Source of the DNA: Deltaproteobacteria bacterium | Lineage (GTDB): Bacteria; Desulfobacterota; Desulfobaccia; Desulfobaccales; 0-14-0-80-60-11 | DNA length: 64,000 bases | Direction of reading: 5' to 3' | NCBI GenBank assembly: GCA_023381945.1 | Contig: JAMCQY010000225.1 | Span: 1-64,000, forward strand | Part shown: piece after piece, positions 18,742-35,120 of the stretch | Position numbering within the stretch: the stretch's first letter is position 1 | Layout: each line of letters starts with the position of its first letter | Translations under genes and position numbers: made by a program | Notes under the pieces: generated by a model | Databases searched by the model: none | What the model saw: the letters and a program-made list of their open reading frames with translations, nothing else | What the model was told of the DNA's origin: nothing

Positions 18742-18789
18742 AAAAATAATTTGGAAGTCCCGGCGGGTGTGACATCCCCCGGCCCAAAA

Positions 18790-18866
18790 CCCCAATCGGG
18801 GGGCGAGATGTTATCCCCCTGAGAGGGGATAAGTGTCTCTGCCCCTAATTAAAAGGAGGTGGAGAC
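18790..18866 (+). promoter_or_regulatory. Three-hairpin leader masking the TSCPD gene ribosome site
   Basis: Hairpin 1 is CCCC-AATC-GGGG (18790-18801). Hairpin 2 is TATCCCC/GGGGATA (18812-18831). Hairpin 3 runs 18835-18866: GTCTC pairs with GAGAC directly before the ATG, and CCCCT pairs with the AGGAGG ribosome site, with loop AATTAAA. Confidence 0.7.
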
Positions 18867-19358
18867 ATGAATCTCAAGTTAGTGGAGCCGCCGTTAAGCT
18901 CCGACAAGCTGGAGTACATCAGCCCCCGGCCCCGGCCGGAGCGCACCACCGGGGTTACGGATTGCATTAAAACCGGCTGCGGCAAACTCTACGTCACGGT
19001 CAACCGAGACGATCATGGTTTCTGCGAGGTCTTTGCCCAGATGGGCAAGACCGGGGGCTGCGCTTCTTCTCAGATCGAGTCAGCCGGCCGGCTCATATCG
19101 CTGGCCCTGCGCTCTGGTGTCAAGATCGACGCCATCATCAAACAGATCAGTGGCCTGCGCTGCCCCAGTCCTTGCTGGCAGAATGGCAGCCAAGTGCTCT
19201 CCTGTCCTGATGCCATCGCTAAGGTGCTGGCCCGGGCGGCTGAAGTAGAGCCTCCGATACCGGCCATCATAGGCTCTTGTCCCGATTGCGGCAGCGTTAT
19301 GCAGCGTGAAGGTAGCTGTTCGGTCTGTAATTCCTGCGGGTTTTCCAAATGTAGCTAA
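18867..19358 (+). CDS. Stand-alone TSCPD protein (C-terminal domain of class II ribonucleotide reductase NrdJ)
   Basis: A 163-aa protein. Residues 30-128 match the TSCPD domain (TGCGKLYVTVNRD, EVFAQMGKTGGC, LISLALRSGV, GLRCPSPC, SCPDAIAKVLAR). The tail CPDCGSVMQREGSCSVCNSCG is the Cys-rich C-terminus of B12-dependent NrdJ. In NrdJ this end is thought to help relay reducing power to the active site. Here it is alone, with no catalytic RNR gene in the window, so it may serve or modify the host enzyme to support element replication. It is the first gene of the plus-strand module. Confidence 0.85.
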   Translation: MNLKLVEPPLSSDKLEYISPRPRPERTTGVTDCIKTGCGKLYVTVNRDDHGFCEVFAQMGKTGGCASSQIESAGRLISLALRSGVKIDAIIKQISGLRCPSPCWQNGSQVLSCPDAIAKVLARAAEVEPPIPAIIGSCPDCGSVMQREGSCSVCNSCGFSKCS

Positions 19359-19362
19359 TTAA

Positions 19363-19450
19363 CCGGCCTTTGGCCGGATAAAAAACCCCGCTGGGGGAGC
19401 TAACCGCCCCGGCAGGGGACAGGTCTGACTCCTCCGGCCCACAAGGAGGA
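19363..19450 (+). promoter_or_regulatory. Multi-hairpin leader of the 59-aa gene
   Basis: CCGGCC-TTT-GGCCGG (19363-19377) is followed by CCCCGCTGGGG (19385-19395), CCCC/GGGG (19406-19417), and TCCTCC (19429-19434) pairing with the ribosome site GGAGGA (19445-19450), 6 nt before the ATG. Confidence 0.7.
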
Positions 19451-19456
19451 ACAATT

Positions 19457-19636
19457 ATGAGAATGTCAACGGCGTTGGCGCTGCGTTTCGAGCTGGTCTA
19501 CTACCTGGGCGAGCTTGAGAAGAAAAACAACCAGGAAAAGGCGGCGGTTATCCGCCGCAAGATTGCCCACATCGATAGTTACATCAAATCGACGCCTCCC
19601 CTCATGCCGCCTATGGCCATGAGTAAGGGCGTCTAA
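19457..19636 (+). CDS. Small protein, 59 aa, unknown function
   Basis: ATG at 19457 preceded by AAGGAGGA and ending TAA at 19636. The product starts MRMSTALALRFELVYYLGE and is basic and helical (EKKNNQEKAAVIRRKIAHI). It lies between two genes with the same type of structured leader and has its own, which argues that it is expressed. No family recognised. Confidence 0.65.
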   Translation: MRMSTALALRFELVYYLGELEKKNNQEKAAVIRRKIAHIDSYIKSTPPLMPPMAMSKGV

Positions 19637-19660
19637 AGACAACCCGGGAATAAGCACTAA

Positions 19661-19746
19661 CCGGCCCCTGGCCGGACAAAACCCCGCTGGGGGAGAACTA
19701 ATCCCCCCTTGGGGGAGCGTTCTCCTCCAGCGAAAAGGAGGAGAAC
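19661..19746 (+). promoter_or_regulatory. Multi-hairpin leader of the RDF gene with perfect 10-bp masking stem
   Basis: CCGGCC-CCT-GGCCGG (19661-19675), CCCCGCTGGGG (19682-19692), a CCCCC/GGGGG hairpin (about 19702-19716), then GTTCTCCTCC (19719-19728) pairing perfectly with GGAGGAGAAC (19737-19746). The whole ribosome site is in the stem; the ATG follows 2 nt later. Confidence 0.8.
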
Positions 19747-19748
19747 GT

Positions 19749-20756
19749 ATGGGCATCAAAAACCTGACCCCCCGCCTGGCCGAATGGGGAAAAATCAAGA
19801 TCGGGGCCAAAGGGGAAATGAAAACCTCCAATCAGGGAAGACAGTTCGCCCAGCCGCAGAAGTTGGATCATTTCATCATTACTACCATGGAACGGGACGC
19901 CGCCGGGCGGCTGTTGCCGGACACGGACCTCATGGCCCGGCTGAAGCCCGAGGGCGGCAAGATCACCTCCATTCCCATTCTGCTGCTCTACGACGACCCG
20001 GAAGTCAACTTCCTGACCCGCTACGCGGCTTACGCCGGCAACACCCTGTTATGTCAGGGAGATGGGGAGTCGGCGCAACGGTTGCAGGACAGCAAATATC
20101 AGACCGTCCCTTGCCCGTGCCCTCGGCTGGAAGAGGCCTACGCCGGAAAGGACATATGCAAACCGAACGGGGTGCTCCAATGCCTCATCCAGGGGGTCAA
20201 TCGCATCGGGGGGGTCTGGAAGTTCCGGACCACTTCCTGGAACTCGGTCCAGAGCATCATGTCGTCCATGAAGCTCTTTCAGACCGTCACCGGCGGTATC
20301 CTGGCCGGCATTCCCCTGCAGATGAGGGTGTCGCCCAAGACCGTGACCGTGCGGGGCGGCAACCAGATCGTTTATATCGTGTCCCTGGAGTTTTCCGGGA
20401 CGACGCAGCAGCTGACCCAGGTCGCCCTGGACATTACCCGGAGACAGGCAGAGTATCGGGTCAGGTTGGAACATCTGGAGGCCGAGGCCCGCAAGGCATT
20501 GGAGCACCAGGCGGAGTCACCCGAAGAGGTGAAAGATATCCAGCAGGAGTTCTACCCTGAAGGGGCGGTGCTGGACGTGTCCCAGGAAGAGATCATTCCG
20601 ACCGGAACACAGCCGGACGCAGAAAAAGCGGGCGGACCTGGGGATGTTGCCGGTCTTCCCACGACCGAAACCGATCCGTTCCTGGCCGAAGCGCCGGAAA
20701 CGGCGGCAGGCAAGGGCAACGGCAATGGCCAGCCTCAATCGGCGGAATTGTTTTAG
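19749..20756 (+). CDS. Gp3-like recombination directionality factor
   Basis: A 335-aa protein. It shows the pattern of phage-type Gp3-like recombination directionality factors: a beta-rich N-terminal domain, then VPCPCPRLEEAYAGKDICKP with four Cys that may bind metal, NGVLQCLIQGVNRIGGVWKF and RTTSWNSVQSI. The C-terminal 90 residues are acidic and disordered. Such factors switch integrases toward excision, though those characterised act with serine integrases; many ICE homologues have no known partner. The serine recombinase at 11353 and the tyrosine integrase at 4734 are candidates. Function is therefore inferred. Confidence 0.7.
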   Translation: MGIKNLTPRLAEWGKIKIGAKGEMKTSNQGRQFAQPQKLDHFIITTMERDAAGRLLPDTDLMARLKPEGGKITSIPILLLYDDPEVNFLTRYAAYAGNTLLCQGDGESAQRLQDSKYQTVPCPCPRLEEAYAGKDICKPNGVLQCLIQGVNRIGGVWKFRTTSWNSVQSIMSSMKLFQTVTGGILAGIPLQMRVSPKTVTVRGGNQIVYIVSLEFSGTTQQLTQVALDITRRQAEYRVRLEHLEAEARKALEHQAESPEEVKDIQQEFYPEGAVLDVSQEEIIPTGTQPDAEKAGGPGDVAGLPTTETDPFLAEAPETAAGKGNGNGQPQSAELF

Positions 20757-20913
20757 GGAGCCGGAGATGAAATGCTGGGCGTATGACGAAAACGGAACTT
20801 TTGCGGCCAGCCTACGGTCACTATAGATCCTCAGCGGGGTTGCACGGTCTGCCGGCGACATGCCCCTGAAGGCGAGGCGAACCAACAGGAGCAGCCTCGC
20901 CAGGAGTCTCACA

Positions 20914-21129
20914 ATGGAAAAGAAAACGGTGTTCTTTAATTCCGATCAAGGAGCGAATGGTCGGCGCACCACCACCAACGGCGGCATTGAGATCGTGCAA
21001 TACGGGACCGGCCTGACCGACCTGTTCATCCGTGGTCCCAAAGGCGGTCTGCGGCACGTGGTAATGCTGCCCGACCTGGAAGCCTTGCTCCTGGGCCAGG
21101 AATTGGTCGCCCTTTGTTCTCAGGGCTGA
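20914..21129 (+). CDS. Small conserved-looking protein, 71 aa, unknown
   Basis: I choose the ATG at 20914, which follows CAGGAG at a good distance; an upstream in-frame ATG at 20860 would add 18 basic residues. The protein is mostly beta-rich (KTVFFNSDQG, IEIVQYGTGLTDLFIRGP). The leader holds a 7-bp inverted repeat GGCGAGG/CCTCGCC that ends just before the ribosome site. No family recognised. Confidence 0.55.
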   Translation: MEKKTVFFNSDQGANGRRTTTNGGIEIVQYGTGLTDLFIRGPKGGLRHVVMLPDLEALLLGQELVALCSQG

Positions 21130-21146
21130 TCGCTACAAAGTTGATA

Positions 21147-21218
21147 CCCCGCCGGGGGGAGACCTGATCCTCCCGGGTGGGGGCATGGTTTCCCCCTGGC
21201 TTTTTGGCGGAGGAAGCC
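21147..21218 (+). promoter_or_regulatory. Multi-hairpin leader of the RecB-type nuclease gene
   Basis: CCCCGCCGGGG (21147-21157), a GGGGG/CCCCC hairpin (about 21178-21195), then GGCTT (21198-21202) pairing with AAGCC (21214-21218), which touches the ATG and encloses the GGAGG ribosome site. Confidence 0.6.
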
Positions 21219-22328
21219 ATGCAACAATACTCGTATTCTCGCCTGGACTTGTATGACCGGTGTCCTTGGGCCTACAAGCTAACCCACCTGGATCAGATCC
21301 CACGAGAAGAAAATCCTTCCCAAAAACTTGGGAAGGAGCTGCATCAAAAGATCGAAGTCTACCTCAACCGGCTGATCAGCCGGAAATATCCCACCGACTG
21401 GACCTGGGCCGAAAAACAGCCTGCGTCTGAAGAAGCGAAGGAAGTCTGGGAGAAGTTTTACGGCAGGTTCACATTGCCTGCCGCCATGGAGGCCCCTGGG
21501 GTGGAGCGGAAGCTGGCCTTCACCCGCACCTGGGAGCCCTGCGACTTTATGGCGCCGGAGGCATTTTTCCGCCTGGTGGTGGATTTCCACTACCGGCAGA
21601 ACGGCCTGGCAGTGGTCACCGATTGGAAAAGCGGTTGGGTGCTCCCCGATTCGGTTGCAGAGTCCTTGCAGCTGCGCATCTACGGCTGGTCAATCTGCAA
21701 GGCAGTGTACCAGGACGTCCAGGAGGTATTATTGCGCCTCCATTTTCTGCGGTTTGGCCGGGATCTGGAAGTTCTGGTCACGCCGGCCGATTTGCAAAGC
21801 GTTCCGCAGGAGCTGGAAGCCCGGATCGCCACCATCGAGGCGGACCAGACGTTTACGCCGCGGCCAGGCTCGTTTTGCGACTGGTGCGGCTTGACGGCTT
21901 ACTGCCCGGTGATGGCCCAGACCCTGGTGCCTCGGGAGATCGTGGCGCCAGCCACTCGGGAGCAGGCCCAACAGGCTGCGGAGCTACTTCTGTCACTACG
22001 GGAAATGGATAAATTCCTGACCACCCGCCTCAAGGACTGGGTGCAGACGCACGGCCCCATCCCGGTGGGAGACCTGGTTTACGGTCCATCTGAATCCGTG
22101 ACCTACAGCTTGGAGGCCCAGGAGGTGGTTCAAAAACTCCTGGCCGCGGGTCTGGAACGGCAGTCGATCTGGCCCCTGCTTTCGGTGTCCAAGACAACGC
22201 TGGAGAGGGCCCTGAAGAAACTCAAGCGGCGTGACCTGCTGAAACAGATTCTGGGCCAAGTCCCGCAGAAGGTAGCCGATCGGTTCGACTTCCGCAAGGC
22301 GGCTTCTGCCAATAAGAAGGCGGCTTGA
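21219..22328 (+). CDS. PD-(D/E)XK (RecB/Cas4-like) exonuclease with Fe-S cysteines
   Basis: A 369-aa nuclease. The start YSYSRLDLYDRCPWAYKL is the typical PDDEXK_1 opening with the first cluster Cys. GKELHQKIEVY supplies the conserved His region, and VTDWKSG (Asp135, Lys137) is the catalytic D-x-K. CDWCGLTAYC holds the last three Cys, giving the four ligands of an AddB/Cas4-type Fe-S cluster. A C-terminal helical extension of about 110 residues is unassigned. Expected to act in recombination of the element with SSB and helicases nearby. No cas1/cas2 or repeats are present, so it is not a CRISPR Cas4. Confidence 0.85.
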   Translation: MQQYSYSRLDLYDRCPWAYKLTHLDQIPREENPSQKLGKELHQKIEVYLNRLISRKYPTDWTWAEKQPASEEAKEVWEKFYGRFTLPAAMEAPGVERKLAFTRTWEPCDFMAPEAFFRLVVDFHYRQNGLAVVTDWKSGWVLPDSVAESLQLRIYGWSICKAVYQDVQEVLLRLHFLRFGRDLEVLVTPADLQSVPQELEARIATIEADQTFTPRPGSFCDWCGLTAYCPVMAQTLVPREIVAPATREQAQQAAELLLSLREMDKFLTTRLKDWVQTHGPIPVGDLVYGPSESVTYSLEAQEVVQKLLAAGLERQSIWPLLSVSKTTLERALKKLKRRDLLKQILGQVPQKVADRFDFRKAASANKKAA

Positions 22329-22351
22329 GCTAAAAGAGAAGGAGATAAATC

Positions 22352-22567
22352 ATGAGAAAAAACAGAATGTTCCTGGCGTTTTGCCTGGACGACTTGCAAA
22401 GCGAATGTGCGGGGGCGCAGGTAAAGACTCTGGGCATAGACAACATGGCTGAGGCCAAGGCCTTTCTGCGTCGCTATTACCCGGAGTTCTCCTGGGTCGT
22501 GGTGGATAAACGGATTTTCGACCGCGGCCTGGTGTTCAGGAGCGCAAAGGAGAAGCAGGCTGCCTAA
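22352..22567 (+). CDS. Small protein, 71 aa, unknown function
   Basis: ATG at 22352 with AAGGAG upstream and no structured leader; it lies 23 bp after the nuclease gene, so it is likely co-translated. The sequence (MFLAFCLDDLQSE then EAKAFLRRYYPEFSWVVVDK) looks like a compact alpha/beta fold. No family recognised. Confidence 0.6.
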   Translation: MRKNRMFLAFCLDDLQSECAGAQVKTLGIDNMAEAKAFLRRYYPEFSWVVVDKRIFDRGLVFRSAKEKQAA

Positions 22568-22583
22568 TCGGACAAAAAGCCAA

Positions 22584-22654
22584 CCCCGCCGGGGGGAGTC
22601 GCCCCCTGGGGTGCCGATCTCTCACAGGTGGAAAAAGCCAAAGAAGGGAGGTCT
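22584..22654 (+). promoter_or_regulatory. Leader with CCCCGCCGGGG element, ribosome site not clearly masked
   Basis: CCCCGCCGGGG (22584-22594) ends 60 nt before the ATG and is followed by a CCCC/GGGG hairpin near 22604-22613. The ribosome site GGGAGGT appears free, unlike the other leaders. Confidence 0.55.
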
Positions 22655-23026
22655 ATGGAAATCATCTTGTTTGCTCTGCTGATTGGGGCTTGCTTCATGT
22701 GGCCCCAAAGGGAGCCCGATAGGCCGAGGTTCTGGCGGCGGTTTTGGGGCATTCGAGAACATGAACCCGAAGCCCCCCAAGAGCTAGAAAGTCGTCTCCA
22801 AGTCCGCCAGGAATTAGACAAAGAATCCGACCGGATGTGGACGCACATTTCCTACCGGGAAAACGGACGGTCTATCAGCGTCAAATGCCAGGAAAACCTG
22901 ACCCTGGCATTTGCCGGCCTGGTCCTGAAACTGGAATCCTCCGGAGTCCAAATTCAAGAAGCCCAGGGGAAGACAGTCCAGGTTCAGCCCTCGATATATA
23001 CCTGGACACCGAAAGCAGGGGCCTGA
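22655..23026 (+). CDS. Small membrane-anchored protein, unknown function
   Basis: A 123-aa protein starting at ATG 22655 after GGGAGGT. The first 15 residues (MEIILFALLIGACFM) form a short hydrophobic anchor; an acidic helical stretch follows (about 35-65), then a beta-rich C-terminal region. No family recognised. Membrane location is inferred. Confidence 0.6.
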   Translation: MEIILFALLIGACFMWPQREPDRPRFWRRFWGIREHEPEAPQELESRLQVRQELDKESDRMWTHISYRENGRSISVKCQENLTLAFAGLVLKLESSGVQIQEAQGKTVQVQPSIYTWTPKAGA

Positions 23027-23138
23027 GATCAATGTTCATGGAAAGAAGATCAAACCTTGGCCTCTGAAGGTTAAGCCGAAGCAGGCGGAAGCAGAAGGAG
23101 AAGATGTCGATGCCGCCGGAGCCGGGCAATTGTTTTGA
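23025..23138 (+). pseudogene. Possible gene remnant encoding a 37-residue tail
   Basis: Directly after the previous stop another frame reads EINVHGKKIKPWPLKVKPKQ then an acidic tail ending AGAGQLF and a stop. It looks coding, with a terminus like those of DNA-binding proteins such as SSB, but has no start codon. It may be the end of a truncated gene or a frame-shifted extension of the gene before it. Confidence 0.3.
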
Positions 23139-23198
23139 GGCGCCTGAGTTATGTGAGGGCGGGGCCGCGGTCCCTGCCTCTCGTTGAGGGCCAAGACG

Positions 23199-23993: not shown

Positions 23994-24056
23994 GCTTAAA
24001 AAAGGTCAATGTTTAGGGGTCGTAAAACCTTGCGGCCCAAAGGGAGGAACTAATTC

Positions 24057-24440
24057 ATGAAAAGCCTTAACAAGGTCATGTTGATCGGGAACTTAGGCGG
24101 TGATCCCGAAATAAGATACACCGCCGCCGGGGTGCCGGTAGCCCGGTTTTCCCTGGCTACCAACGAAGTCTCTAACGGCAAAAACGGTGACCGCCAGGAA
24201 CAGACCGAATGGCATCGCATCGTGGCCTGGGGAAAGCTGGCGGAAATCTGTGGCAAACATTTGACCAAAGGTAAGCAGGTCTATATCGAGGGCCAACTCC
24301 GCAGCAGAGCCTGGGAGCAGGACGGCAGCAATCGGTCTGCCACCGAGGTCGTCGCCCGCTCGCTCATAATGCTGGGAACAAAAGCCACGAACGGCCTGGA
24401 TTGCAGCTTGCCGCTTGGCGAGGATGATATCCCCATGTGA
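24057..24440 (+). CDS. ssb: Single-stranded DNA-binding protein
   Basis: A 127-aa SSB of the OB-fold family that coats single-stranded DNA in replication and recombination. Opening MKSLNKVMLIGNLGGDPEIRYTAAG, then FSLATNEVSNGKNGDRQEQTEWHRIVAWGKLAEIC and GKQVYIEGQLRSRAW are canonical. The acidic tip is EDDIPM, a somewhat divergent form of the usual DDDIPF partner-binding end. It is short (E. coli 178 aa), with little linker, like many plasmid and phage SSBs. Confidence 0.95.
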   Translation: MKSLNKVMLIGNLGGDPEIRYTAAGVPVARFSLATNEVSNGKNGDRQEQTEWHRIVAWGKLAEICGKHLTKGKQVYIEGQLRSRAWEQDGSNRSATEVVARSLIMLGTKATNGLDCSLPLGEDDIPM

Positions 24441-24457
24441 GCGGCATTAACTGAGGA

Positions 24458-24521
24458 CTCCCACGGGGGGAGGTTACCCCCTGGGGGGTGGCCTCCTCCC
24501 GGCAAGCATAAATGGAGGCCA
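24458..24521 (+). promoter_or_regulatory. Three-hairpin leader of the AAA ATPase gene
   Basis: CTCCC/GGGAG (24458-24472), ACCCCC/GGGGGT (24476-24489), then TGGCCTCC (24489-24496) pairing perfectly with GGAGGCCA (24514-24521), which contains the ribosome site and ends 1 nt before the ATG. Confidence 0.75.
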
Positions 24522-24522
24522 T

Positions 24523-25956
24523 ATGATTCAAGAATATCTGAAAGCCGGGTATCCGGTCTTGCTGGTGCGGACGCACGAGCCGGAGCGGTTCATCGGTGCA
24601 GCCCTCAAACAGGCTAATGGCAGGACTTCCTACCAATGGGATTTGGTCCGGGGCTACCGGGAACTGGGCAATGGGGCCGAGTGGCAAGAGTGCGACCCCT
24701 TTGAGGTTCCCAATACCGCAGCCAGAGGCAAAGACCAGACGGTTTGGTTTTTGAAGAATTATCACTTCTGGCTGAATGAACCGCCGGTTATCCAGGCCCT
24801 GCAAAACAACCTGGCAGTCTACAAGACCAAGGGAACGACGTTAATCATCGTCTCCCCGGAGGCCAGGCTTCCCCTGGAACTGGAACGGGAAGTGGTGGTG
24901 TTGGACTTCCCTTTGCCCACCCGGGATGAACTGAAGATTATCCTGGACGGGCTGACGGAGAGCACCGGGATCGAGGTGGCGGATGAAGTCGCGGTCCTGG
25001 ACTCAGCCCAGGGGCTCACCTGGGGGGAGGCGGAAAACGCCCTGGCTTTGGCCTTGGTACGCCAGAAGCGGTTCGATCCTCACACCGTTTGTCTCCTAAA
25101 GGCCCAGATGGTGGAGAAATCGGCGGCCTTGCAGTTCTCGCAGTTCTCCGAAACCTTCGCCACCCTGGGTGGCCTGGAGAATCTGAAAGAGTGGACCCTG
25201 AACCGATTCAAGAACCGTCGGTCGGGACTGCCCTTCCGGGGCATCCTGCTTCTGGGTGTGCCGGGAACCGGCAAATCCCACTTCTCTAAGGCCTTGGGAA
25301 ACGAGGTGATCTGGCCGGTCCTCTCCCTGGATTTGGGTCGAGTCTTCGGTTCCTTGGTGGGCGAAAGCGAGGGCAAAATGCGGGAAGCCTTGAAGGTAGT
25401 GGACGCCATGGCGCCCTGCATCCTCTTCATCGATGAAATCGAGAAAGGCCTGGCCGGGGTGGGCGGCTCATCCACTGACGGCGGCACGACCCAGCGAGTG
25501 GGCGGCACCTTCCTCAGCTGGCTCAACGATCATCAGAGCCAGGTGTTCGTCATAGCCACTTCCAACGATTATAGCAAGCTGCCTCCGGAGTACACCAGGA
25601 TGGGGAGGTGGGATTCGATCTGGTTTGTGGACAACCCGGGAGTCAAGGAGCAACTGGACATCCTGGACATCTACCTCAAGCAGTTTATGAGCAAGACCAT
25701 CGGAGCCCTGATGGCCGAGAGCGACGGGCGGGTTAAAATCCCCGACCTGGCGGGTTACAGCGGTGCAGAAATCCGGCAAGTAGCCATTGAAGCGGCATAC
25801 AACGGCGGTGACCTGGAAGCCGCAACCCGATTCGTCATCCCCATTTCCCGGTCCCAGAAGTCCCAAATGGACGCCCTGCGGGAATGGGCCAGGGCCCGCA
25901 CTGTTCCGGCCAGCCGGCCGGTGGAAGAAAGGAAAGGAAGGAGGGTTCAGCTTTGA
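24523..25956 (+). CDS. AAA+ ATPase of the Ycf46 type
   Basis: A 477-aa ATPase. The N-terminal 200 residues are the Ycf46-type domain (YPVLLVRTHEPERF, VVLDFPLPTRDELKIIL). The AAA module has Walker A GVPGTGKS (245-252), Walker B ILFIDEIEKG (Asp304), sensor FVIATSND and an arginine-finger region (YTRMGRWD). The two following genes overlap it or lie within a few bases, and DUF1257 and DUF2997 proteins follow, a grouping that recurs with Ycf46 in cyanobacteria and phages. Role unknown; probably a remodelling ATPase. Confidence 0.85.
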   Translation: MIQEYLKAGYPVLLVRTHEPERFIGAALKQANGRTSYQWDLVRGYRELGNGAEWQECDPFEVPNTAARGKDQTVWFLKNYHFWLNEPPVIQALQNNLAVYKTKGTTLIIVSPEARLPLELEREVVVLDFPLPTRDELKIILDGLTESTGIEVADEVAVLDSAQGLTWGEAENALALALVRQKRFDPHTVCLLKAQMVEKSAALQFSQFSETFATLGGLENLKEWTLNRFKNRRSGLPFRGILLLGVPGTGKSHFSKALGNEVIWPVLSLDLGRVFGSLVGESEGKMREALKVVDAMAPCILFIDEIEKGLAGVGGSSTDGGTTQRVGGTFLSWLNDHQSQVFVIATSNDYSKLPPEYTRMGRWDSIWFVDNPGVKEQLDILDIYLKQFMSKTIGALMAESDGRVKIPDLAGYSGAEIRQVAIEAAYNGGDLEAATRFVIPISRSQKSQMDALREWARARTVPASRPVEERKGRRVQL

Positions 25957-27042: not shown

Positions 27043-27063
27043 AATTCTGCCCAGTTAAAAACA

Positions 27064-27129
27064 TTCCCTTCCGGGGGAGAGCATTCCCCGGTCGGGGAAC
27101 AGTTCTCCTCCGGAGCAAGACAAGGAGGA
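27064..27129 (+). promoter_or_regulatory. Three-hairpin leader of the DUF3150 gene
   Basis: TCCC/GGGA hairpin (about 27065-27078), TTCCCC-GGTC-GGGGAA (27084-27099), then TCCTCC (27106-27111) pairing with the ribosome site GGAGGA (27124-27129). Confidence 0.7.
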
Positions 27130-27134
27130 AAACC

Positions 27135-28037
27135 ATGAGTATGAACGGTTTTGACGAGATGGTGGCCATTCAGTTGGCGGTGCGCTCCTGGCCGGGACAG
27201 GTCAAGCTCAGTGCCGAGGACCTGGGTCTGGATGAGGCCGAGGTGCCTGAGATTTTTCGCCTGGGCAACAAGCGGCTTTACCCGGACGAGTGGCGGCAGC
27301 TGTTCAGCCACATCTCTAACCAGGCCAGGTATTACCTGCATGGCATCTCTTATCCTTTCGTGGTGGACTCCGTGCGGGCCATTCCCAAGCGGAACCTGGC
27401 CCGGGTAGTGGAACGGCTGGAAAGCTTGAAGGCCGAGTACCTGGCCAAGGCTGAGGAATTCGCAGCTCACTACGAGGCCATCCAAGAACAGTGGCGGGAG
27501 AAATACCCGGATATCTGGCCGCGGCTTGCTCCCCACTACCCTACCGTAACCCGGCTCCGTCGGAGGTTTGACATTTATTGGTCCGTCTTCGAGATCAAGG
27601 GGGCCAACGTGCAGGAAGGCAGTGCTCCGGAGGTCATCGAGGCCTACCAGCGGGCCCGGGAAGAGCTCCAGGCCCGCTATGACGAGATGGTAGAGGAGGC
27701 GGTAATCTATCTCCGCAAAAAGGTCTTGGAGGTGGTTACCAATCTTTCACACCGCCTGAAGGATGGTCGCATTATCCGTAACGACACGCTGGAAAGCGTA
27801 CGTAATGTGGAGAATTGGTTCAAGGACCTCAACATCTTCGGCGACGTGGAGGTAGAGGCGGCCTTGGATCAGTTACAGTCTGCCCTGGAAGGTACCGACT
27901 CCGAGGCCTTGAAGGACAACGAATCCCTCAAGAAGGAGTTAGCTGAACTGGCTGACCAGGTGGCGGCGGTTGCCGGCAAGCTGGATGACGTGAGTGCCAT
28001 ATCCGGCAACTACAAGAGGATGATTGACCTCTCCTAA
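27135..28037 (+). CDS. DUF3150-type protein, helical
   Basis: A 300-aa protein from the ATG at 27135 after AAGGAGGA. It is nearly all helical, with coiled-coil stretches around 90-125, 180-215 and 255-290 (ALKDNESLKKELAELADQVA). Overall character and neighbours fit DUF3150 proteins found on ICEs and phages near SSB, ArdC and DNA methylase genes. I am not certain of the family. A structural or DNA-associated role is possible. Confidence 0.55.
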   Translation: MSMNGFDEMVAIQLAVRSWPGQVKLSAEDLGLDEAEVPEIFRLGNKRLYPDEWRQLFSHISNQARYYLHGISYPFVVDSVRAIPKRNLARVVERLESLKAEYLAKAEEFAAHYEAIQEQWREKYPDIWPRLAPHYPTVTRLRRRFDIYWSVFEIKGANVQEGSAPEVIEAYQRAREELQARYDEMVEEAVIYLRKKVLEVVTNLSHRLKDGRIIRNDTLESVRNVENWFKDLNIFGDVEVEAALDQLQSALEGTDSEALKDNESLKKELAELADQVAAVAGKLDDVSAISGNYKRMIDLS

Positions 28038-28044
28038 GATAACC

Positions 28045-28072
28045 GGGGTCCCCCTAAGAATAGGGGAACCCC
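28045..28072 (+). promoter_or_regulatory. Hairpin abutting the ribosome site of the gene at 28088
   Basis: GGGGT-CCCC (28045-28053) pairs with GGGG-A-ACCCC (28063-28072), one bulged A. The stem ends right before AAGGAGGA, so the ribosome site is free here, unlike most leaders in the module. Confidence 0.6.
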
Positions 28073-28087
28073 AAGGAGGACAAACTC

Positions 28088-28546: not shown

Positions 28547-28550
28547 GCCC

Positions 28551-28922: not shown

Positions 28923-28926
28923 AACC

Positions 28927-29187: not shown

Positions 29188-29192
29188 AGATC

Positions 29193-29354: not shown

Positions 29355-29372
29355 ATAGCCTGTTTGCTGCGG

Positions 29373-29442
29373 CCCCGCCGGGGGGGTGACTGCCCCCTTC
29401 GTGGCGGTAGTCATTCTCCCGGCGGCATTTGAGGGAGGATGA
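29373..29442 (+). promoter_or_regulatory. Three-hairpin leader of the ArdC-like gene
   Basis: CCCCGCCGGGG (29373-29383), a GACTGCC/GGTAGTC hairpin (about 29388-29412), then TCATTCTCCC (29411-29420) pairing with GGGAGGATGA (29433-29442) over 10 positions with one G-T wobble. The ribosome site is fully inside the stem; the ATG follows at 29444. Confidence 0.75.
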
Positions 29443-29443
29443 T

Positions 29444-30283
29444 ATGAACGAAAGGCAAGAGCAGCAATGGCAACAGGCCCTGTCCGGCATCCTGCAGGAA
29501 TTCCAACAGGGCACGATCCCCGAAGCCATTGCCCTGGCTTTGTTCCCGGAAGCTGACGTTCCGTCCGCCAGGTGGAGCCTGACCAACCGGCTTCTCATGG
29601 TGATGGCTGGAACCCAGGACGCCCGGGGCATCAAACAGTGGAACGCCGTGGGCCGGCGGGTGAAGAAAGGCGCCAAGGCCTTGCGAATCTTCGCCCCCCG
29701 GATCATTCGGGTGAAAGCCAAACACCCCCCCGAGCTTCTTGAAGACCAAAACGAGGAAATCCAAGAGCGGCAGAAGCTGGTGGGCTTCCTGCTCATCCCA
29801 GTGTTTCGGGTTGAAGACACGGAAGGGGAGCCCCTGACCTATGAGCTCCTGGAAGTCCCCGATCTGCCCCTCCTGGAAGTGGCCCAGGCCTGGGATCTGG
29901 AAGTGAAAGCCATCCCGGGCAATGTTTCCTTCTACGGCAGCTTCCGGGCCTCCACCTGCGAAATCAGCCTGGCCTCTCCGGAAGAAAAGGTGTTTTTTCA
30001 CGAGCTGGCCCATGCGGGGCACAGTCGTTTGGGCCGTCTCAAGGGAAGCGCCCGGTGGCAGGCCGAGGCGGTGGCGGAGCTATCCGCCGCCGTGCTGTGT
30101 CGCGTCTGCGGCCGGCAGCCGGATGAAAACCTGGGCGAAAGCTATCGTTACCTGGAGCGGCAGGCCCGGAAAGCCGGGCTGACCGTGGCCCAGGCTTGCC
30201 TGGCGGTCCTATCGGACGTGGAGGCCGTGCTGAACCTGATCAGGAGCACGGCGCAGGCCCAGGCGATACCTGCTGCCGCATAG
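29444..30283 (+). CDS. ArdC-like antirestriction protein with zincin domain
   Basis: A 279-aa protein. The N-terminal half resembles the ArdC ssDNA-binding domain (SARWSLTNRLLMVMA, GIKQWNAVGRRVKKGAKALRIFAP). The C-terminal half is a zinc metallopeptidase-like domain with HELAHAGH (His186, Glu187, His190) and a downstream Glu in EAVAELSAAV. ArdC proteins protect incoming plasmid DNA from host restriction. Its leader and place in the replication module suggest expression on transfer. Confidence 0.8.
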   Translation: MNERQEQQWQQALSGILQEFQQGTIPEAIALALFPEADVPSARWSLTNRLLMVMAGTQDARGIKQWNAVGRRVKKGAKALRIFAPRIIRVKAKHPPELLEDQNEEIQERQKLVGFLLIPVFRVEDTEGEPLTYELLEVPDLPLLEVAQAWDLEVKAIPGNVSFYGSFRASTCEISLASPEEKVFFHELAHAGHSRLGRLKGSARWQAEAVAELSAAVLCRVCGRQPDENLGESYRYLERQARKAGLTVAQACLAVLSDVEAVLNLIRSTAQAQAIPAAA

Positions 30284-30326
30284 AGAGAATACGTGTGTAA
30301 CCCAAATCTTCACAGGAGGAAGAGAT

Positions 30327-30815
30327 ATGTCGGTGCCTAGGTCATACGGAAGAATCGAGTTCCCGTTATCTGCGATTGGTGACGAAATCAGGAACCTGCT
30401 GATTGAAGAAGGTGTTCGGTTCAAAGAGGACAGCCTGGAGATAGACGGTTCTCTTGGCGATCTGGAGGTAGAGGTCAAGGAAGGCCTTTTCTCCATGGAA
30501 AACAGTGAGGCCCGCTATGGGGAGTTTGATGATTTGGAAACCCTTCTGATAGAGAAGGGTATCCCCTTTGACCGGGTAAGCGGCATGGATTGGAACCGCC
30601 CTCCGGAGCGGCGGATTTTCCGCCCGGGCCCACCAGACTTTGATCATTATTATCCACTTGATTCGGAGGCGTATGCGCCGGTGGTCAGCATCTCGACCAT
30701 CCAGGAATTGCTGGGCCTGCCCATGCCGACGTATGAAATTCAGGCCTACCTGGAAAAACACTTTCCAAGCTATTCGCCCCTGGCGGACTGGGTCAAGCAG
30801 GAGGTGCAGCGGTGA
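30327..30815 (+). CDS. Hypothetical protein, paralogue of the gene at 28088
   Basis: A 162-aa acidic protein sharing many short blocks with the protein at 28088 (see that entry), with a slightly longer N-terminal half. ATG at 30327 after GGAGGAAGAG. The ribosome site lies within a small TCTTC/GAAGA stem-loop. Its stop overlaps the next start. Confidence 0.65.
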   Translation: MSVPRSYGRIEFPLSAIGDEIRNLLIEEGVRFKEDSLEIDGSLGDLEVEVKEGLFSMENSEARYGEFDDLETLLIEKGIPFDRVSGMDWNRPPERRIFRPGPPDFDHYYPLDSEAYAPVVSISTIQELLGLPMPTYEIQAYLEKHFPSYSPLADWVKQEVQR

Positions 30816-31042
30816 GCAAGGTTAACCATCTAGCCCTTAATGGCCGGCGGCTCCAAAGGATGAAAGTGGCCCTTAATAAGCTGATCCGGTCGGCCCGGGA
30901 TACTCATTGGCGGGCAGAAATCCACTTCTACTCCGGCAATCTGGATGGCGGCAAGATGCGGAATCTGGATGACCTGGTTATGCATCTGGAAGACGCCAGA
31001 ACGGAAATCCGGGAGTATCTGAGAACCATTAAAACGGCCTGA
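30812..31042 (+). CDS. Small basic helical protein, 76 aa
   Basis: GTG start at 30812 overlapping the previous gene by 4 bp (GTGA). The product is basic at first (RRLQRMKVALNKLIRSARD) and ends in an acidic helix (LEDARTEIREYLRTI). No family recognised. Confidence 0.55.
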   Translation: MSKVNHLALNGRRLQRMKVALNKLIRSARDTHWRAEIHFYSGNLDGGKMRNLDDLVMHLEDARTEIREYLRTIKTA

Positions 31043-31059
31043 AGGCCTGAATAAACTAA

Positions 31060-31123
31060 CCCCGCCGGGGGAGAACCCCTGGCTGGGGGCCTCCTTCGGC
31101 GGGCTAAACCAAGGGAGGAGGTC
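31060..31123 (+). promoter_or_regulatory. Three-hairpin leader of the DNA methyltransferase gene
   Basis: CCCCGCCGGGG (31060-31070), CCCC/GGGG (about 31076-31088), then GGCCTCCTTC (31088-31097) pairing with GGGAGGAGGTCC (31113-31124) with one bulged T. The ribosome site is inside the stem, 2 nt before the ATG. Confidence 0.7.
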
Positions 31124-31125
31124 CA

Positions 31126-32142
31126 ATGGCAAGATTGGCATCTCAAGCAAAATCGGGGTACTACCCGACGCCCCCCGAAGTGGTGGCCCACATAAAACGG
31201 GGTCTGGCCCTGGCCGAGGAAGGACCTTTCCGGTTCCTGGACCCTTGCTGCGGCTGCGGCCGCGCCCTGGCGCAACTGGCGGAAGGCTTGCCAGTGGAAA
31301 CTTTCGGAGTGGAGTTGGCCCAGGAGCGCTATGAGGAGGCCAAGCCCCGGCTCCGGAATACCATCCTGGCCGACGCGGTCACGGAAACGAACCTCACCAG
31401 AAACGCCTTCAGCCTCCTGTGGCTCAATCCGCCCTACGATTTCGAGGCGGATGGCGGCCCCAGGCTGGAGAAAATCTTCCTGGAACGTTACCTGCCCTAC
31501 CTGGTGCCGGGCGGGGTGCTGGTGTATCTCATCCCAGCCCGGGCCCTGCAGTACGTGGTCTGGCACCTTGGCGAACTGGGTGACTTGCGGTTCTATGCCT
31601 TTCCGCAACCGCTTTACGACCAGTTCAAGCAGGTGGTCATCATTGGGGTGAAGAAGCCGGAGCTGCATGATACAGGCCGGCTGAACGAGTTGGCCTGGAA
31701 GCCTCCTGAGGCCCTGTGGCAGATACTGCCCAAGACCGATGAGATCATGCCGGGAAGCATCCCGGTGAAGCGGTCGCCGGCCTTCCGGCGGATCACCTTT
31801 TCCTCAGAGCGCCTGCTTCTGGAAGAGATGGTTCGGCTGGTGGGCCAATCGGCCCTGCACCAGGAGTTTGAAGGCCGGATCAGCCCGCCGGCGCTGCACC
31901 AGATCCGCTCCCTGGCCCCCTTGCGCCAAGGGCATCTGGGTATGCTGCTGGCCGCGGGGTTCCTCGACGGGGAAGTGGCGGCCAACAGCCGGCGCCTGGC
32001 CATCAAAGGCACGGTCCGGAAGGTTGTGGATGTGCATCGTGAGGTCAACGACTCCGATGAGGTGGTGACCAAAACCGACCGCTACGAAATCCGTATCCGG
32101 GCCATCGACCTGGATCGCATTGAGCTGTTCGATATCCGGTAG
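31126..32142 (+). CDS. N6-adenine DNA methyltransferase-like protein of the ICE (DUF6094 type)
   Basis: A 338-aa Rossmann-fold methyltransferase. The SAM-binding motif is FLDPCCGCGRAL (residues 37-48), the acidic motif GVELAQERYEEA, and the catalytic motif NPPYDF (101-106), as in adenine-N6 enzymes. GYYPTPPEVVAHI near the start fits the N6 MTase opening. The C-terminal 150 residues are unassigned and may recognise DNA. No cognate nuclease is adjacent, so it may be a solitary enzyme that protects the element. The DUF6094 label is from memory of ICE gene sets. Confidence 0.75.
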   Translation: MARLASQAKSGYYPTPPEVVAHIKRGLALAEEGPFRFLDPCCGCGRALAQLAEGLPVETFGVELAQERYEEAKPRLRNTILADAVTETNLTRNAFSLLWLNPPYDFEADGGPRLEKIFLERYLPYLVPGGVLVYLIPARALQYVVWHLGELGDLRFYAFPQPLYDQFKQVVIIGVKKPELHDTGRLNELAWKPPEALWQILPKTDEIMPGSIPVKRSPAFRRITFSSERLLLEEMVRLVGQSALHQEFEGRISPPALHQIRSLAPLRQGHLGMLLAAGFLDGEVAANSRRLAIKGTVRKVVDVHREVNDSDEVVTKTDRYEIRIRAIDLDRIELFDIR

Positions 32143-32152
32143 GAGGCCCGAA

Positions 32153-32713
32153 ATGGAAATTGTCAAGATTGTTGGTTTTGACCACGTGTCCTGTTTCGCC
32201 GACCGGCTGATCATCGAACCGGAGAAGGAACGCCTGCACCTGGCGTCGCTGTTCGGCACCCTGGCCCGGGTCACCGCAATCAAGGCCCAGTTGCTCACCG
32301 GCAAACAGGTCTTGATTCAGCGATTGGATCAAAAACGTGGCCATCAGGTTGAAAGAAGCCAAGGGCCTTACCAGGTCCTTATCAAGCGGCTGTCGCCGGA
32401 AGTGCTCCATTGTCTGCTCTTCAGGGCCGACCTGTTCCTGCCCAAGAGCAATGGGAGTGATCGGATCATTGTCGGCAACTCCAGGGATGAGGTGCTCTCC
32501 CGGTTCTTCCGCCTGGCGCAGCAGCATTATACCTTGCCGCTGCTCCCCGCCTGGACGGAGTGGCTTTGGGAGCAATGTGAGCCGGAGCAGTTGGAGGCCA
32601 TCGGCTGGCAGGAGGCCTGGACCCTTTGTTGGCCTCAAGATGAAGAACTGGAAGCAGCCCTGATGAACGACGAAGACTCGCCGTTGCATCAGGAAGAACC
32701 TACCAAACACTAA
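32153..32713 (+). CDS. Hypothetical protein, 186 aa
   Basis: ATG at 32153, 10 bp after the methyltransferase stop, with TAGGAGG upstream. The sequence is mixed alpha/beta (KIVGFDHVSCFADRLII, LHCLLFRADLFLPKSNG) and ends in an acidic tail. No recognised domain. Linked to the methyltransferase by position only. Confidence 0.6.
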   Translation: MEIVKIVGFDHVSCFADRLIIEPEKERLHLASLFGTLARVTAIKAQLLTGKQVLIQRLDQKRGHQVERSQGPYQVLIKRLSPEVLHCLLFRADLFLPKSNGSDRIIVGNSRDEVLSRFFRLAQQHYTLPLLPAWTEWLWEQCEPEQLEAIGWQEAWTLCWPQDEELEAALMNDEDSPLHQEEPTKH

Positions 32714-32731
32714 AATCAGAAATAAACACCA

Positions 32732-32797
32732 CCCGGACGGGGTAAGACCTATGCCCCGCCGGGGCCAGGTTCTTGCCTCCGTCCCAGGAGGCAGAAC
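32732..32797 (+). promoter_or_regulatory. Three-hairpin leader of the SNF2 helicase gene
   Basis: CCCGGACGGGG (32732-32742) at the usual distance, then CCCCGCCGGGG (32754-32764), then GTTC-T-TGCCTCC (32769-32780) pairing with GGAGGCA-GAAC (32787-32797) with a single bulged T. The stem includes the ribosome site and ends at the base before the ATG. Confidence 0.8.
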
Positions 32798-35062
32798 ATG
32801 GCAGAAAACGATCTCACCTTAAAGGACTTCCTGCAAGAATTCCGGGAAGTCCTGTTGGCCAAGGTGCAAAGCGACCCGGTGTACCGCTCTGACCGGCGGG
32901 ACGCCTGGGACCGCCAAGCCCTGGGCCGGCTGGACGGCCTGCTCCGGCAACCTTTCGAGTCCCAGATCGACGGCATTCTGGCGCTGGCTAAGGGGTTTTA
33001 CCACGAAGGCCAACGGGCCGGGCTGCTGGTGGGCGAGATGGGGGTCGGCAAGACCCTGTGCGCCATTGCGGTGGCGCATCTCTCTCCCCGAAAGCGGCAC
33101 CGGACCCTCGTCATGTGCCCCGGTCATCTGGTGGAGAAGTGGAAACGGGAAATTCTGCAAACCGTTCCCGACGCCCAGGTGGTGGACCTGAACGGCCCGG
33201 GCCTGAAAGAACTCCTGGCATTGCCGGGGCAAAAACCCCAGGGCCGGGAGTTCTGGGTGATCGGCAAGGAGCGGGCCAAGAACCACTATGCCTTTCGCTC
33301 CGCGGTCATTAACCGGCCTTTGCGGAAAACCTTGTGTTGTCCCTCTTGCGGGGGAAGCCTTGATCCTACCCACGTGATGGGCAAGCGCAAGCTCAAGTGC
33401 GAGAGGTGCCGGGCTCCCCTGTGGCAGGCGGATTCACAATTGCGTCGCTTTGCCAAGGCGGAGTTCATCAAGCGGTATCTCCCCAAGGGGACCTTCGATC
33501 TGCTGATCGCCGACGAGGTCCACGAGTATAAGGGCGCCGATACCGCCCAGGGCCAGGCCCTGGCATGTCTGGCGGCCTCCGCCAGACGCTCCCTGGGATT
33601 GACAGGAACGCTCATGGGCGGCTATAGCACGAATCTCTTTTACCTGCTGTGGCGCCTGTTTCCGAACCTGACCAGGGATAAGGCGGAATATTGAGCGGAA
33701 AAGACGTTTGCCGCCCAATACGGCGTCCTGGAAGTGGTTCAAAAGACCTCGCTCCGGGACAACTACGCCTCCATCGGCGGCCGGAAAAACCGGGAAATCA
33801 CCAAGGAGAAGCCCGGGGTTTCTCCCATGGTCTTGACCGACTTCCTGCTGGGCCACTCGGTATTCCTGCGGCTCCAGGATTTAAGCCGGCACCTGCCGCC
33901 GTATCTGGAAGAGGTGGTGGGCGTGGAGATGCTTCCGGAGCAGGCCGAGGAGTACCGGCTTCTGGAGAACAACCTGCGCCGTGCCTGTCGCCAGGCCCTG
34001 GCCATGGGGGACCACAGTCTCCTGGGGGCCCTGGTGCAGTCACTCCTGGCCTACCCGGATGGCTGCCGGCGGGGGGAAGTAGTGCTCCACCCACACACCG
34101 GAGAGCTGGTGGCGGAAGCCGCCGAAATCGAAGCGGATCTGCTGCCCAAGGAGCAAAAGCTCCTGGACCTGGTGCGGGCGGAAACGGCCCAGGGCCGGAA
34201 ATGCCTGGTCTGTCTGGAGCACACCGGCAAACGGGACCTGATTCCCACCCTGACGGAAAAGCTACGCACCCTCGGGATCATGCCCCTGGTGCTCCGGGCT
34301 GACAATCCTCCGGTGGCCAAACGGGAGGCTTTCATCCGCAAGATGGCCTCTCGCTTCCAGGTGATGATCACCAACACCAATCTGATCAAGACCGGGTTGG
34401 ATCTGGTGGAGTTCCCTACCCTGATCTTTTTTCAGACGGGGTACTCGGTCTTCACCCTGCGGCAGGCGTCTCGCCGGTCCTGGCGCATCGGCCAGGAGCA
34501 GCCGGTTAAGGTCTATTACCTGAACTACGGCAATACCATGCAGGAACTGGCCTTGTCCCTGCTGGCCGCCAAGATGGAAACGGCGCTGGCGGTGGAGGGC
34601 GACCTCACCGACAAGGGTCTGCTGGCGCTGGCGGAGTCGGGCAACTCCATGCTGCTGGAATTGGCCCGCACCCTGGTGGGAGACCTGGAACGGCCGGCAG
34701 CCTTGGAGGGCGCCTGGCAGTCCTTCCAGGGTGCGGCACTGCAAGCCGACGCCCTGGTGGGGCTGGACCAGCCGGTAGAGACGGTCACCACCGTAGAAAC
34801 CACTGTGGCCTTGGGCGACAGCCAATCCACGGTGCGGATCACCAGGGTGGTGCGTGGTCGGGTCATTCCCCAGGGGAAACTCGCCATCGGCTATGTGGGT
34901 CCCCATCGGTTCCTTTTCCAGGAGGGGAAAGTGTTCTTCCAGAACCGCCTGGTGGGGGTCTATGACCGGTCGGGCCAGGGAGAGATCAACGGCAAACCCA
35001 TCCAGTTGGTGAAAAAAGACAGCGCCTATTTGCTGGTGGAACTCCGGCAAGAAGCAGCGTAA
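32798..35062 (+). pseudogene. SNF2-family helicase interrupted by one in-frame TGA
   Basis: The 32798-33694 part (298 aa) has Walker A LLVGEMGVGKTLC and ADEVHEY (DEVH box) plus a zinc ribbon (CCPSCGGSL, CERCRAPL). It stops at TGA (33692-33694) after KAEY. The same frame then continues without another stop to 35062: AEKTFAAQYGVLEVVQK and the helicase C-terminal domain (QASRRSWRIGQEQPVKVYYL). So a single codon separates the two halves of one SNF2 protein of about 754 aa. It may be a nonsense mutation (for example from TGG), a sequence error, or a read-through site. The function would be DNA translocation in replication or recombination. Confidence 0.8.
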
Positions 35063-35075
35063 ACAATTGGCTCCT

Positions 35076-35120
35076 ATGGGGGTAGCAGTCCTCCCCGTGG
35101 GGGACTGTCTCTACCCCCAT
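35076..35120 (+). promoter_or_regulatory. Long nested hairpin upstream of the primase-like gene
   Basis: ATGGGGGTAG (35076-35085) pairs perfectly with CTACCCCCAT (35111-35120), and inside it CAGTCC (35086-35091) pairs with GGACTG (35102-35107), with extra C/G pairs. The ribosome site GGAGGG (35129-35134) is outside the stem. Confidence 0.7.

Follow-up and report, generated by a model that had tools for sequence, protein, structure and literature searches.

Leaders with two exclusive folds, repeated at the ribosome binding sites of a mobile-element operon, probably act as two-state translational attenuators

Translational riboswitches adopt two exclusive folds, one of which hides the Shine-Dalgarno (SD) sequence, and attenuators of the erm/cat type consist of a chain of mutually exclusive helices, with an early strand as competitor for the anti-SD. 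In SXT, a strong translational attenuator upstream of bet hinders bet and exo (Garriss et al. 2013, as cited in PMC4542580); the portions of that review that deal with bet describe both genes as highly transcribed yet poorly expressed, and place the attenuator also in IncA/C plasmids, with its function there untested (PMC4542580). Structure of another kind is known from leading regions, where Frpo promoters and other structured sites lie before ssb and other early conjugative genes (PMC11541004, in the passages on such sites). Here we analyse a stretch of 64,000 nucleotides (nt) of contig JAMCQY010000225.1 from a Deltaproteobacteria bacterium, hereafter the window, in which one kind of leader stands before eleven genes of a mobile-element operon.

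These leaders resemble each of the described systems in part. They contain the same chain of exclusive helices as erm/cat-type attenuators, with an early strand set against the anti-SD; unlike those, they have no dedicated leader peptide that we could see, the nearest upstream frame being a full gene in most copies, and no erm-type leader peptide runs through segment 1, the first paired strand of the leader (an upstream frame of at least 50 codons is present in 59/67 and ends at or before segment 1 in 59/59). As in riboswitches, one of two exclusive folds hides the SD, but no conserved aptamer-like unpaired core is seen, the loops being variable, and with Rfam 15 no leader in the window or in six further loci (L229, L230, L231, L234, L266 and L270) has a match at the gathering score; the sub-threshold list for L229 holds low scores of mixed kinds. 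Frpo/ssi sites are likewise structured and precede ssb and other early genes of conjugative elements, whereas the leader contains the SD, runs up to the start codon and is repeated ahead of many cistrons. With the SXT/R391 bet attenuator the leaders share a concern with translation of a recombination gene in a related module, and a covariance model of the leaders (R2, below) matches the bet leaders of plasmids pRA1 and pMS6198A. However, one site upstream of bet is described in the relevant part of PMC4542580, against eleven copies in the window and 16-18 matches per plasmid in pSTJ2 and pRA1; the leaders also precede exo, AAA, DUF3150, VWA, primase, methyltransferase, recombination directionality factor and helicase genes; and they have a six-segment two-state anatomy and reach a second phylum. 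This comparison was made through bet leaders of IncA, IncC and Vibrio plasmids, not SXT itself. The kind is already known from one gene, bet, and it is the model match that joins the leaders to this known attenuator family. A search of open papers (subscription papers lay outside it) found no description of the multi-gene deployment, the six-segment two-state anatomy or the second-phylum reach, and as far as searched the deployment, the two-state design and the spread are new.

From 5' to 3', a leader consists of an unpaired A (often CAA or CCA), segment 1 (CCC or CCCC), segment 2 (GGGG plus an extension), segment 3 (CCCC), segment 4 (GGGG), segment 5 (the anti-SD plus an extension), segment 6 (the SD plus an extension) and the start codon. 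The clearest copy precedes the gene of a Gp3-like recombination directionality factor; its parts are listed here from sequence reading and fold, with the R2 E-value (E), pairing scores for segments 2 (A), 5 (B) and 6 (C), and z from 300 dinucleotide shuffles.

19680..19751, + strand: leader of g3 (Gp3-like recombination directionality factor, ATG 19749); E 1.2e-9; A:B 30, B:C 30; z -5.5
19682..19685, + strand: segment 1, CCCC after unpaired AA
19689..19698, + strand: segment 2 (A), GGGGGAGAAC, mimic of segment 6
19703..19708, + strand: segment 3, CCCCCC
19711..19715, + strand: segment 4, GGGGG
19717..19728, + strand: segment 5 (B), anti-SD, GCGTTCTCCTCC
19737..19748, + strand: segment 6 (C), SD plus extension, GGAGGAGAACGT

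Segment 2 shares letters with segment 6, both here (GGGGGAGAAC vs GGAGGAGAAC) and before 32798 (CGGGGTAAGACCT vs GGAGGCAGAAC). Two mutually exclusive folds follow from this arrangement: an OFF fold, in which 1:4 pairs around 2:3 and 5:6 masks the SD, and an ON fold, in which 2:5 pairs around 3:4 and the SD is free. We read the G and C runs as following from one fixed strand: segment 6 must be the SD, so that segment 5 is the anti-SD, segment 2 an SD mimic, segment 3 an anti-SD mimic, and so on.

The computation establishes the anatomy, its conservation, its placement before starts and the availability of both folds. On this basis we consider it likely that each leader is a two-state translational attenuator of alternating SD-like and anti-SD-like strands, and give the two-state attenuator reading as a whole, mechanism included, a rough probability of 0.7. 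In the OFF state, 1:4 and 2:3 would form a two-tier hairpin, leaving the anti-SD (segment 5) to close the SD (segment 6); in the ON state segment 2, as mimic of the SD region, would take the anti-SD through 2:5, with 3:4 closing inside, and the SD would be free. OFF would be the resting state of the finished mRNA, and a gene would open when segment 1 is occupied or when 2:5 forms before the SD exists. An earlier, sequence-only reading of this stretch had proposed masked ribosome sites under one shared on/off control of translation, keeping replication and antirestriction genes silent until excision or transfer; the part on shared translational control is borne out only in part. The SD does lie in a stem, and one structure family does recur at the ribosome sites, but the simple mask gives way to a two-state switch in which SD and anti-SD mimics alternate and some members favour the SD-free fold.

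Eleven starts between 18867 and 35142 carry this leader, which measures 66-79 nt from segment 1 to the start codon. The window leaders were chosen by eye. Two covariance models were then used: R1, of the OFF fold, was built from 28 leaders, and R2 from 67 matches, partly from the eleven window leaders themselves; both describe the OFF fold only, so that the 2:5 pairing lies outside them. On the + strand of the 64 kb, R2 returns the eleven leaders at E 1e-9 to 4e-4 and no other site with E <0.5, while some of its antisense matches overlap the same hairpins. The ten leaders other than that of g3 are:

18788..18869, + strand: leader of g1 (TSCPD domain protein, ATG 18867); E 1.8e-6; A:B 25, B:C 25; z -4.8
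19384..19459, + strand: leader of g2 (59 amino acids (aa), ATG 19457); E 9.4e-8; A:B 22, B:C 16; z -2.4
21145..21221, + strand: leader of g5 (PD-(D/E)XK nuclease, ATG 21219); E 9.3e-8; A:B 36, B:C 21
22582..22657, + strand: leader of g7 (123 aa, ATG 22655), absent from the earlier list; E 1.3e-6; A:B 17, B:C 18; z -1.6
24456..24525, + strand: leader of g10 (AAA ATPase, ATG 24523); E 4.8e-5; A:B 31, B:C 23
27064..27137, + strand: leader of g14 (DUF3150, ATG 27135); E 2.9e-8; A:B 30, B:C 20
29371..29446, + strand: leader of g19 (weak ArdC-N match, ATG 29444); E 2.4e-6; A:B 34, B:C 25
31058..31128, + strand: leader of g22 (DUF6094 methyltransferase, ATG 31126); E 2.2e-7; A:B 28, B:C 27
32730..32800, + strand: leader of g24 (SNF2-type helicase, ATG 32798); E 4e-7; A:B 27, B:C 25
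35069..35144, + strand: leader of g25 (primase zinc ribbon/Toprim, inferred GTG 35142), absent from the earlier list; E 3.9e-4; the long hairpin with free SD is favoured

The nine starts at which an SD-holding stem had been reported all have one (9/9, the shortest, of 6 bp, at 19457), and the family grows by 22655 and 35142. The long stems it described also hold up, with 12 positions before 19749 (GCGTTCTCCTCC/GGAGGAGAACGT, one G-T), 11 before 29444, 11 bp plus a bulge before 32798 and 9 positions before 24523, and the leaders do sit at the ribosome binding sites of replication, recombination and, by a weak match, anti-restriction genes. The C-run/G-run hairpins said to precede each stem are present; they are not separate structures but the alternative half of the same fold. 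They had been judged not to be terminators, and no + strand match to an intrinsic terminator (a G+C-rich stem followed by a T-run) occurs in 10/11 window leaders; the remaining one holds a weak terminator-like match at 21179 (leader 21145-21221), with a 5-pair stem and an offset T-run. The proposed comparison with shuffled controls separates the leaders from their surroundings, with a mean z of -3.6 (-1.6 to -5.5, weakest at 22655) vs -0.8 for 14 other operon starts, the lowest of which is 28088 (-2.8).

The evidence that bears most directly on the ON fold comes from pairing each segment 2 with its own segment 5 or with that of another leader. In the window alone, own 2:5 pairing scores 35.1 vs 25.3 with other leaders' segment 5 (p<=5e-5), and in strict windows, which contain neither segment 3 nor segment 4, 23.5 vs 19.4 (p 0.0001; 10/11 leaders). 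Among R1 matches in new genomes (52 at E<=0.01, 42 without genome G371, 37 without near-duplicates), the 37 non-redundant copies score 34.8 vs 24.9 when swapped, where the highest of 20,000 permutations reached 28.1. We then took every coding-strand match at E<=0.05 on the listed loci of ten elements (the window, G246, G286, G057, G376, G371, pSTJ2, pRA1, pMS6198A and pC704): own pairing beats within-element swaps in 10/10 (combined p<=5e-5). In the strict version of this test, which left out antisense matches, 6 near-duplicates (at least 85% alike) and 5 leaders lacking a clear segment 4, 104 leaders score 22.0 against a swapped mean of 17.5 and a highest value of 18.8 in 20,000 permutations; per-element p ranges from 0.0001 to 0.009, the smallest gap is that of pSTJ2 (19.3 against 17.1), and the result is unchanged for the 94 leaders that remain without pMS6198A, a near relative of pRA1. 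Matches in G028 (6), G299 (4), G341, G244, G210, G213, G634, G708 and G724 stand outside the ten-element test. Earlier hand-picked lists, which took in three weaker annotated-start matches of pRA1 and omitted four of its matches at E<=0.05 as well as a few at E 0.01-0.05 in other elements, agree with it. Seeds of R1 from outside the window were picked for A:B and B:C of at least 19 or by eye, so that a pairing test based on seeds is biased for them, and G371 includes such seeds in the hand-picked and ten-element pairing tests, the mismatch counts and the covariation test. The kind of mismatch is also informative: in 89/96 leaders kept after removal of near-duplicates, A-C clashes in 2:5 number 28 vs 60 with swapped partners and G-U pairs 131 vs 123, as expected if it is the mRNA strand that is under selection.

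Computed energies were compared for 62/68 leaders, after 3 near-duplicates and 3 leaders not ending in ATG had been dropped. OFF is favoured in 57/62, by a median of 6.8 kcal/mol; the SD is paired in OFF in 58/62, and the ON fold has 7 or more 2:5 pairs, likewise in 58/62. Before the SD is made, the long hairpin beats the two-tier hairpin in 44/62 leaders; this is a rough comparison, since segment 5 can be included at the split point, and the remaining leaders are ties for that reason. A preference for OFF of this size would also suit static dampers, that is, leaders that merely lower the translation of very active transcripts and so set protein ratios, with 2:5 arising from the repetition of SD-like sequences and playing no role; for SXT bet the effect is given as hindrance, and the part of PMC4542580 that treats it names no inducer. 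Against such dampers stand the specific 2:5 pairing, kept despite letter change in ten elements separately, and the avoidance of A-C clashes within it, and we think them unlikely to be the whole account.

The OFF fold can be examined by covariation. Its covariation score is 0.318 vs 0.228 in shuffled alignments and its two-sided changes fill 158 cells vs 97, with 0/500 shuffles as high in either case; sliding the OFF partners drops the score to <=0.17. RNAalifold on a MAFFT alignment was also tried and gave only 5 pairs; segments 5 and 6 fall out of register in MAFFT, and the structure was for that reason tallied from independent folds of the two halves. That structure rather than sequence is conserved, as had been supposed from the window, is borne out by one fold family with diverged letters, and the covariance-model search in homologous elements finds the pairing kept across diverged copies.

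In a genome scan with a cutoff at which about one chance match per 100 genomes is expected (E-values are rough), R1 at E<=0.01 matches 14/395 genomes of a phylum inferred to be Desulfobacterota, nine of them with at least two matches, and six of those nine (G246, G057, G376, G341, G286 and G244) took no part in model building. R2 matches 8/349 genomes of Pseudomonadota, the phylum of a Skermanella, three of them with at least two matches, and 0/198 and 0/195 genomes of two further phyla, those to which genomes titled Bacteroidales and Bacillota belong; R1 matches 0/5 assorted genomes. Single genome matches are uncertain; clusters of matches are not. By eye, an SSB gene and nuclease- or AAA-like genes are present in the elements of G246, G057 and G286. 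In the phylum inferred to be Desulfobacterota, 11/395 genomes have a relative of the DUF6094 gene. Three of them (G028, G299 and G371) have the same leaders in other letters, including before a helicase gene related to g24, and helicase starts in L177 and L178 show the fold of the g24 leader in different letters; the other eight, scanned over 3.5 to 40 kb, have no R1 match at E<=0.1. The viral contigs L001-L015 carry g10 relatives of 74-85% identity with no leader at that gene, and none was found at g10 in two contigs of metagenome-assembled genomes (L046 and L047); the presence of these genes is thus not enough to predict the leader. G371 holds several similar element copies on different contigs (L186, L188, L189, L238 and L239) with identical or near-identical leaders, and in G341 (L232 and L233) leader matches form two oppositely oriented blocks separated by about 15 kb. 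As a simple search string the motif AACCCCGCYGGGGGRG was discarded: 37 IMG/VR contigs match it, yet none of them scores with R2 at E<=0.05 (three more loci were scanned alongside); a longer motif pattern gave nothing in 29 genomes of one class.

Several annotated plasmids carry the leaders in quantity. Sulfuricystis multivorans J5B has a plasmid, pSTJ2, whose annotation includes MobI(A/C), an AcaB-family regulator, an FlhC-family regulator and MobH; by these genes it looks like the IncA/C type. It has one cluster of matches: 16 coding-strand R2 matches at E<=0.05 in 66.5-87.5 kb, 12/16 ending exactly at an annotated start, while the first 50 kb, home to most tra genes, give no R2 match at E<=0.5 (first 100 of 102.6 kb scanned). 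The IncA plasmid pRA1, scanned whole, has 18 such matches (one overlap counted once), 17 of them in 74-100 kb and 14 exactly at annotated starts, bet and exo included; its first 50 kb are without an R2 match at E<=1. Exact annotated starts account for 9/11 matches in the Escherichia coli IncC plasmid pMS6198A, 8/11 in pC704 of Vibrio alginolyticus and 3/4 in a Simplicispira suum plasmid, each scanned in part. Over the five plasmids, a hand count gives 46/60 coding-strand matches (E<=0.05) whose end coincides exactly with an annotated start; that they meet a start codon is partly due to the model, which holds the SD and ATG, but that they meet annotated genes is not. Some of the non-exact matches fall in frame within annotated genes (the pSTJ2 cysteine protease and radC) or at unannotated frames. 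In the former, leaders at 21463-21533 and 32628-32695 of L266 (pSTJ2) overlap the annotated first codons of the cysteine protease and radC, and in-frame starts 102 and 48 nt further in suit them better. The bet leaders match R2 at E 2.9e-5 (pRA1), 4e-4 (pMS6198A) and 3.5e-4 (pC704); the window's leaders precede other genes than bet and are joined to these by model homology only. Among 30 of 3208 E. coli records listed for an IncC bet-exo query, no SXT region was recognised; one plasmid has the whole bet-exo stretch, and chromosomes show weak bet matches.

Chance, or the composition of G/C runs, would be the simplest account of such hairpins, and a crude pairing score lends it something: this score passes at 66/1348 control starts, 6/15 in the window operon and 15/59 in four element loci, and it fails to separate the two halves of pSTJ2 (5/38 vs 6/38). 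The shuffles, swapped-partner tests and covariation contradict it, as does the want of any model match in 198 and 195 genomes of two other phyla, and we regard it as close to negligible.

A number of observations weigh against the two-state attenuator. The barrier on the path between OFF and ON has a median of 18.7 kcal/mol, an upper bound, and does not indicate which fold wins in the cell. In the window, 5/11 leaders lie within 2 kcal/mol of balance or favour ON by computed energy, and the mean SD-opening energy of 4.5 kcal/mol in leaders vs 3.3 in other starts is a weak contrast, because at 19457, 24523, 27135, 29444 and 35142 the SD-free fold is nearly as good as the other or better. The covariation alignment was fitted to the OFF model, which tilts the counts its way; the pairs that show two-sided change number 15 vs 14.9 in shuffles; the SD helix is paired in just 67% of alignment cells; and helix 1:4, which scarcely varies, is of little use as evidence of covariation. 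Helix 5:6 shows no excess of G-U over A-C (67 against 64). Distances from the upstream stop codon to segment 1 range from 0 to 147 nt, and the operon's first leader has no nearby upstream gene (the nearest frame, of 31 codons, is 40 nt off), so that ribosome coupling cannot account for every copy. Lastly, an unpaired A precedes segment 1 in 60/66 leaders (a position that lay in the model), and a C stands three bases before it in 38/66 (G in 1/66), outside the model; both hint at a sequence-specific binder (one of 67 leaders, at a contig end, was dropped from these counts).

Such a binder would be a trans-acting factor, whether a host or element protein or an antisense RNA, that attaches to single-stranded C-A/C-A-CCC at segment 1, or to the two-tier hairpin, and sets all leaders together. 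Capture of segment 1 would favour ON, the 15 nt upstream of it are A/C-rich and G-poor, and 16-18 matches per plasmid fit a common regulator. However, two of the positions before segment 1 were inside the model, so that their count is partly by construction; loop sequences differ among aligned copies; and no protein family is common to all 12 leader-bearing loci compared, the best being present in 7/12 (mostly 20 kb stretches, from which distant genes could escape), which argues weakly against one element-encoded regulator. We regard a binder as somewhat unlikely.

Coupling to ongoing gene expression, or nascent-RNA kinetics, is ranked slightly above a binder, and for the two-state attenuator it is the likeliest opener, though our choice of this trigger is tentative. 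The nascent RNA might fold 2:5 before the SD emerges, or a ribosome ending the upstream cistron might keep segment 1 busy; untranslated or older mRNA would close, and every gated cistron of the operon would make protein chiefly during active transcription and translation of the operon. Where the upstream frame has at least 50 codons, its stop lies no more than 28 nt before segment 1 in 45/59 copies (median 19), a short distance that suits coupling to a ribosome ending that cistron; the stop codon abuts AACCC (gap 0) in two copies, and likewise at pRA1 exo, 85699 and 85985.

More broadly, the entire early-gene operon of conjugative elements may be run as a many-copy RNA-switch regulon, an idea we offer as speculative rather than probable: 11 to about 17 diverged bistable SD/anti-SD copies would answer one common cue, for example fresh transcription and translation after entry, with a burst of establishment, recombination and anti-defence proteins, and one device would be common to IncA/C-type plasmids and, in another phylum, to elements of a second kind (DUF6094/SNF2-helicase type). 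Should the fold operate in the way proposed, IncA/C-type plasmids and other mobile elements would have a large block of genes gated post-transcriptionally, one by one, by a common RNA device that no Rfam entry matches in the scanned loci. The leaders could then explain high transcription with poor expression, as reported for SXT bet and exo, and may correct some annotated starts; R2 provides a search model for leader-bearing gene blocks, and the repeated two-state design with differing letters offers a natural set for tests of co-transcriptional folding.

The hairpins might alternatively act in DNA, as Frpo/ssi single-strand promoters or, on the single strand that is transferred, as sites of priming or recombination. 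The gene content (ssb, ardC, radC, recT, methylase) is similar to that of leading regions, the home of Frpo promoters (PMC11541004, in the same passages), but segment 6 is the SD and the leader ends at the start codon, the 2:5 pairing is asymmetric, with G-U over A-C, and no sigma-70 site falls inside a window leader (3 sites in the window operon vs 5.2 in shuffles, by a scan that does not model Frpo hairpins); we find this account very improbable. Scarcely more probable are sites for RNA processing, stability or pausing between cistrons: strong intercistronic hairpins do follow stop codons, yet the conserved part extends as far as the start codon, with the SD in its last helix, and a stability hairpin needs neither segment 5 nor segment 6.

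The operon occupies 18.4-37.4 kb as about 26 genes on one strand, by our own gene calls, and is part of a mobile element. Its products include the TSCPD protein, the Gp3-like recombination directionality factor, the PD-(D/E)XK nuclease, SSB, the AAA ATPase, DUF1257, DUF3150, the DUF6094 methyltransferase, the SNF2-type helicase, a primase and a DnaN sliding clamp; the ArdC-N match is weak and below Pfam's cutoff. A terminator-like hairpin of 14 pairs with a T-run lies downstream of the last gene (37438-37472), and further G+C-rich hairpin-like stretches are seen by eye at 18600-18780, in the long 5' region ahead of the first. At 28038-28087 a lone strong hairpin stops just short of the SD of the 28088 gene and leaves it uncovered; it is perhaps a decayed or reduced leader. 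The helicase gene (32798-35062) has an in-frame TGA at 33692-33694, after which the frame stays open to 35062, and its relatives in L177 (620 aa) and L178 (766 aa) are one uninterrupted long frame each. Beside the element, at 40849-59596, lie anti-phage-defence-like genes with DruE-like, DpdE-like, DrmMI/type IIG-like and LmuB-like matches.

Three minor observations concern the plasmids. In pSTJ2 (L266), a tRNA gene lies just ahead of the leader-bearing block (16298-16369) and a cobalamin riboswitch near ribonucleotide reductase genes (43601-43812). In pRA1, before the primase at 97747 (L269 2650-2750), there is a very long near-perfect hairpin of about -50 kcal/mol, unlike the other leaders, and pMS6198A has the same long hairpin.

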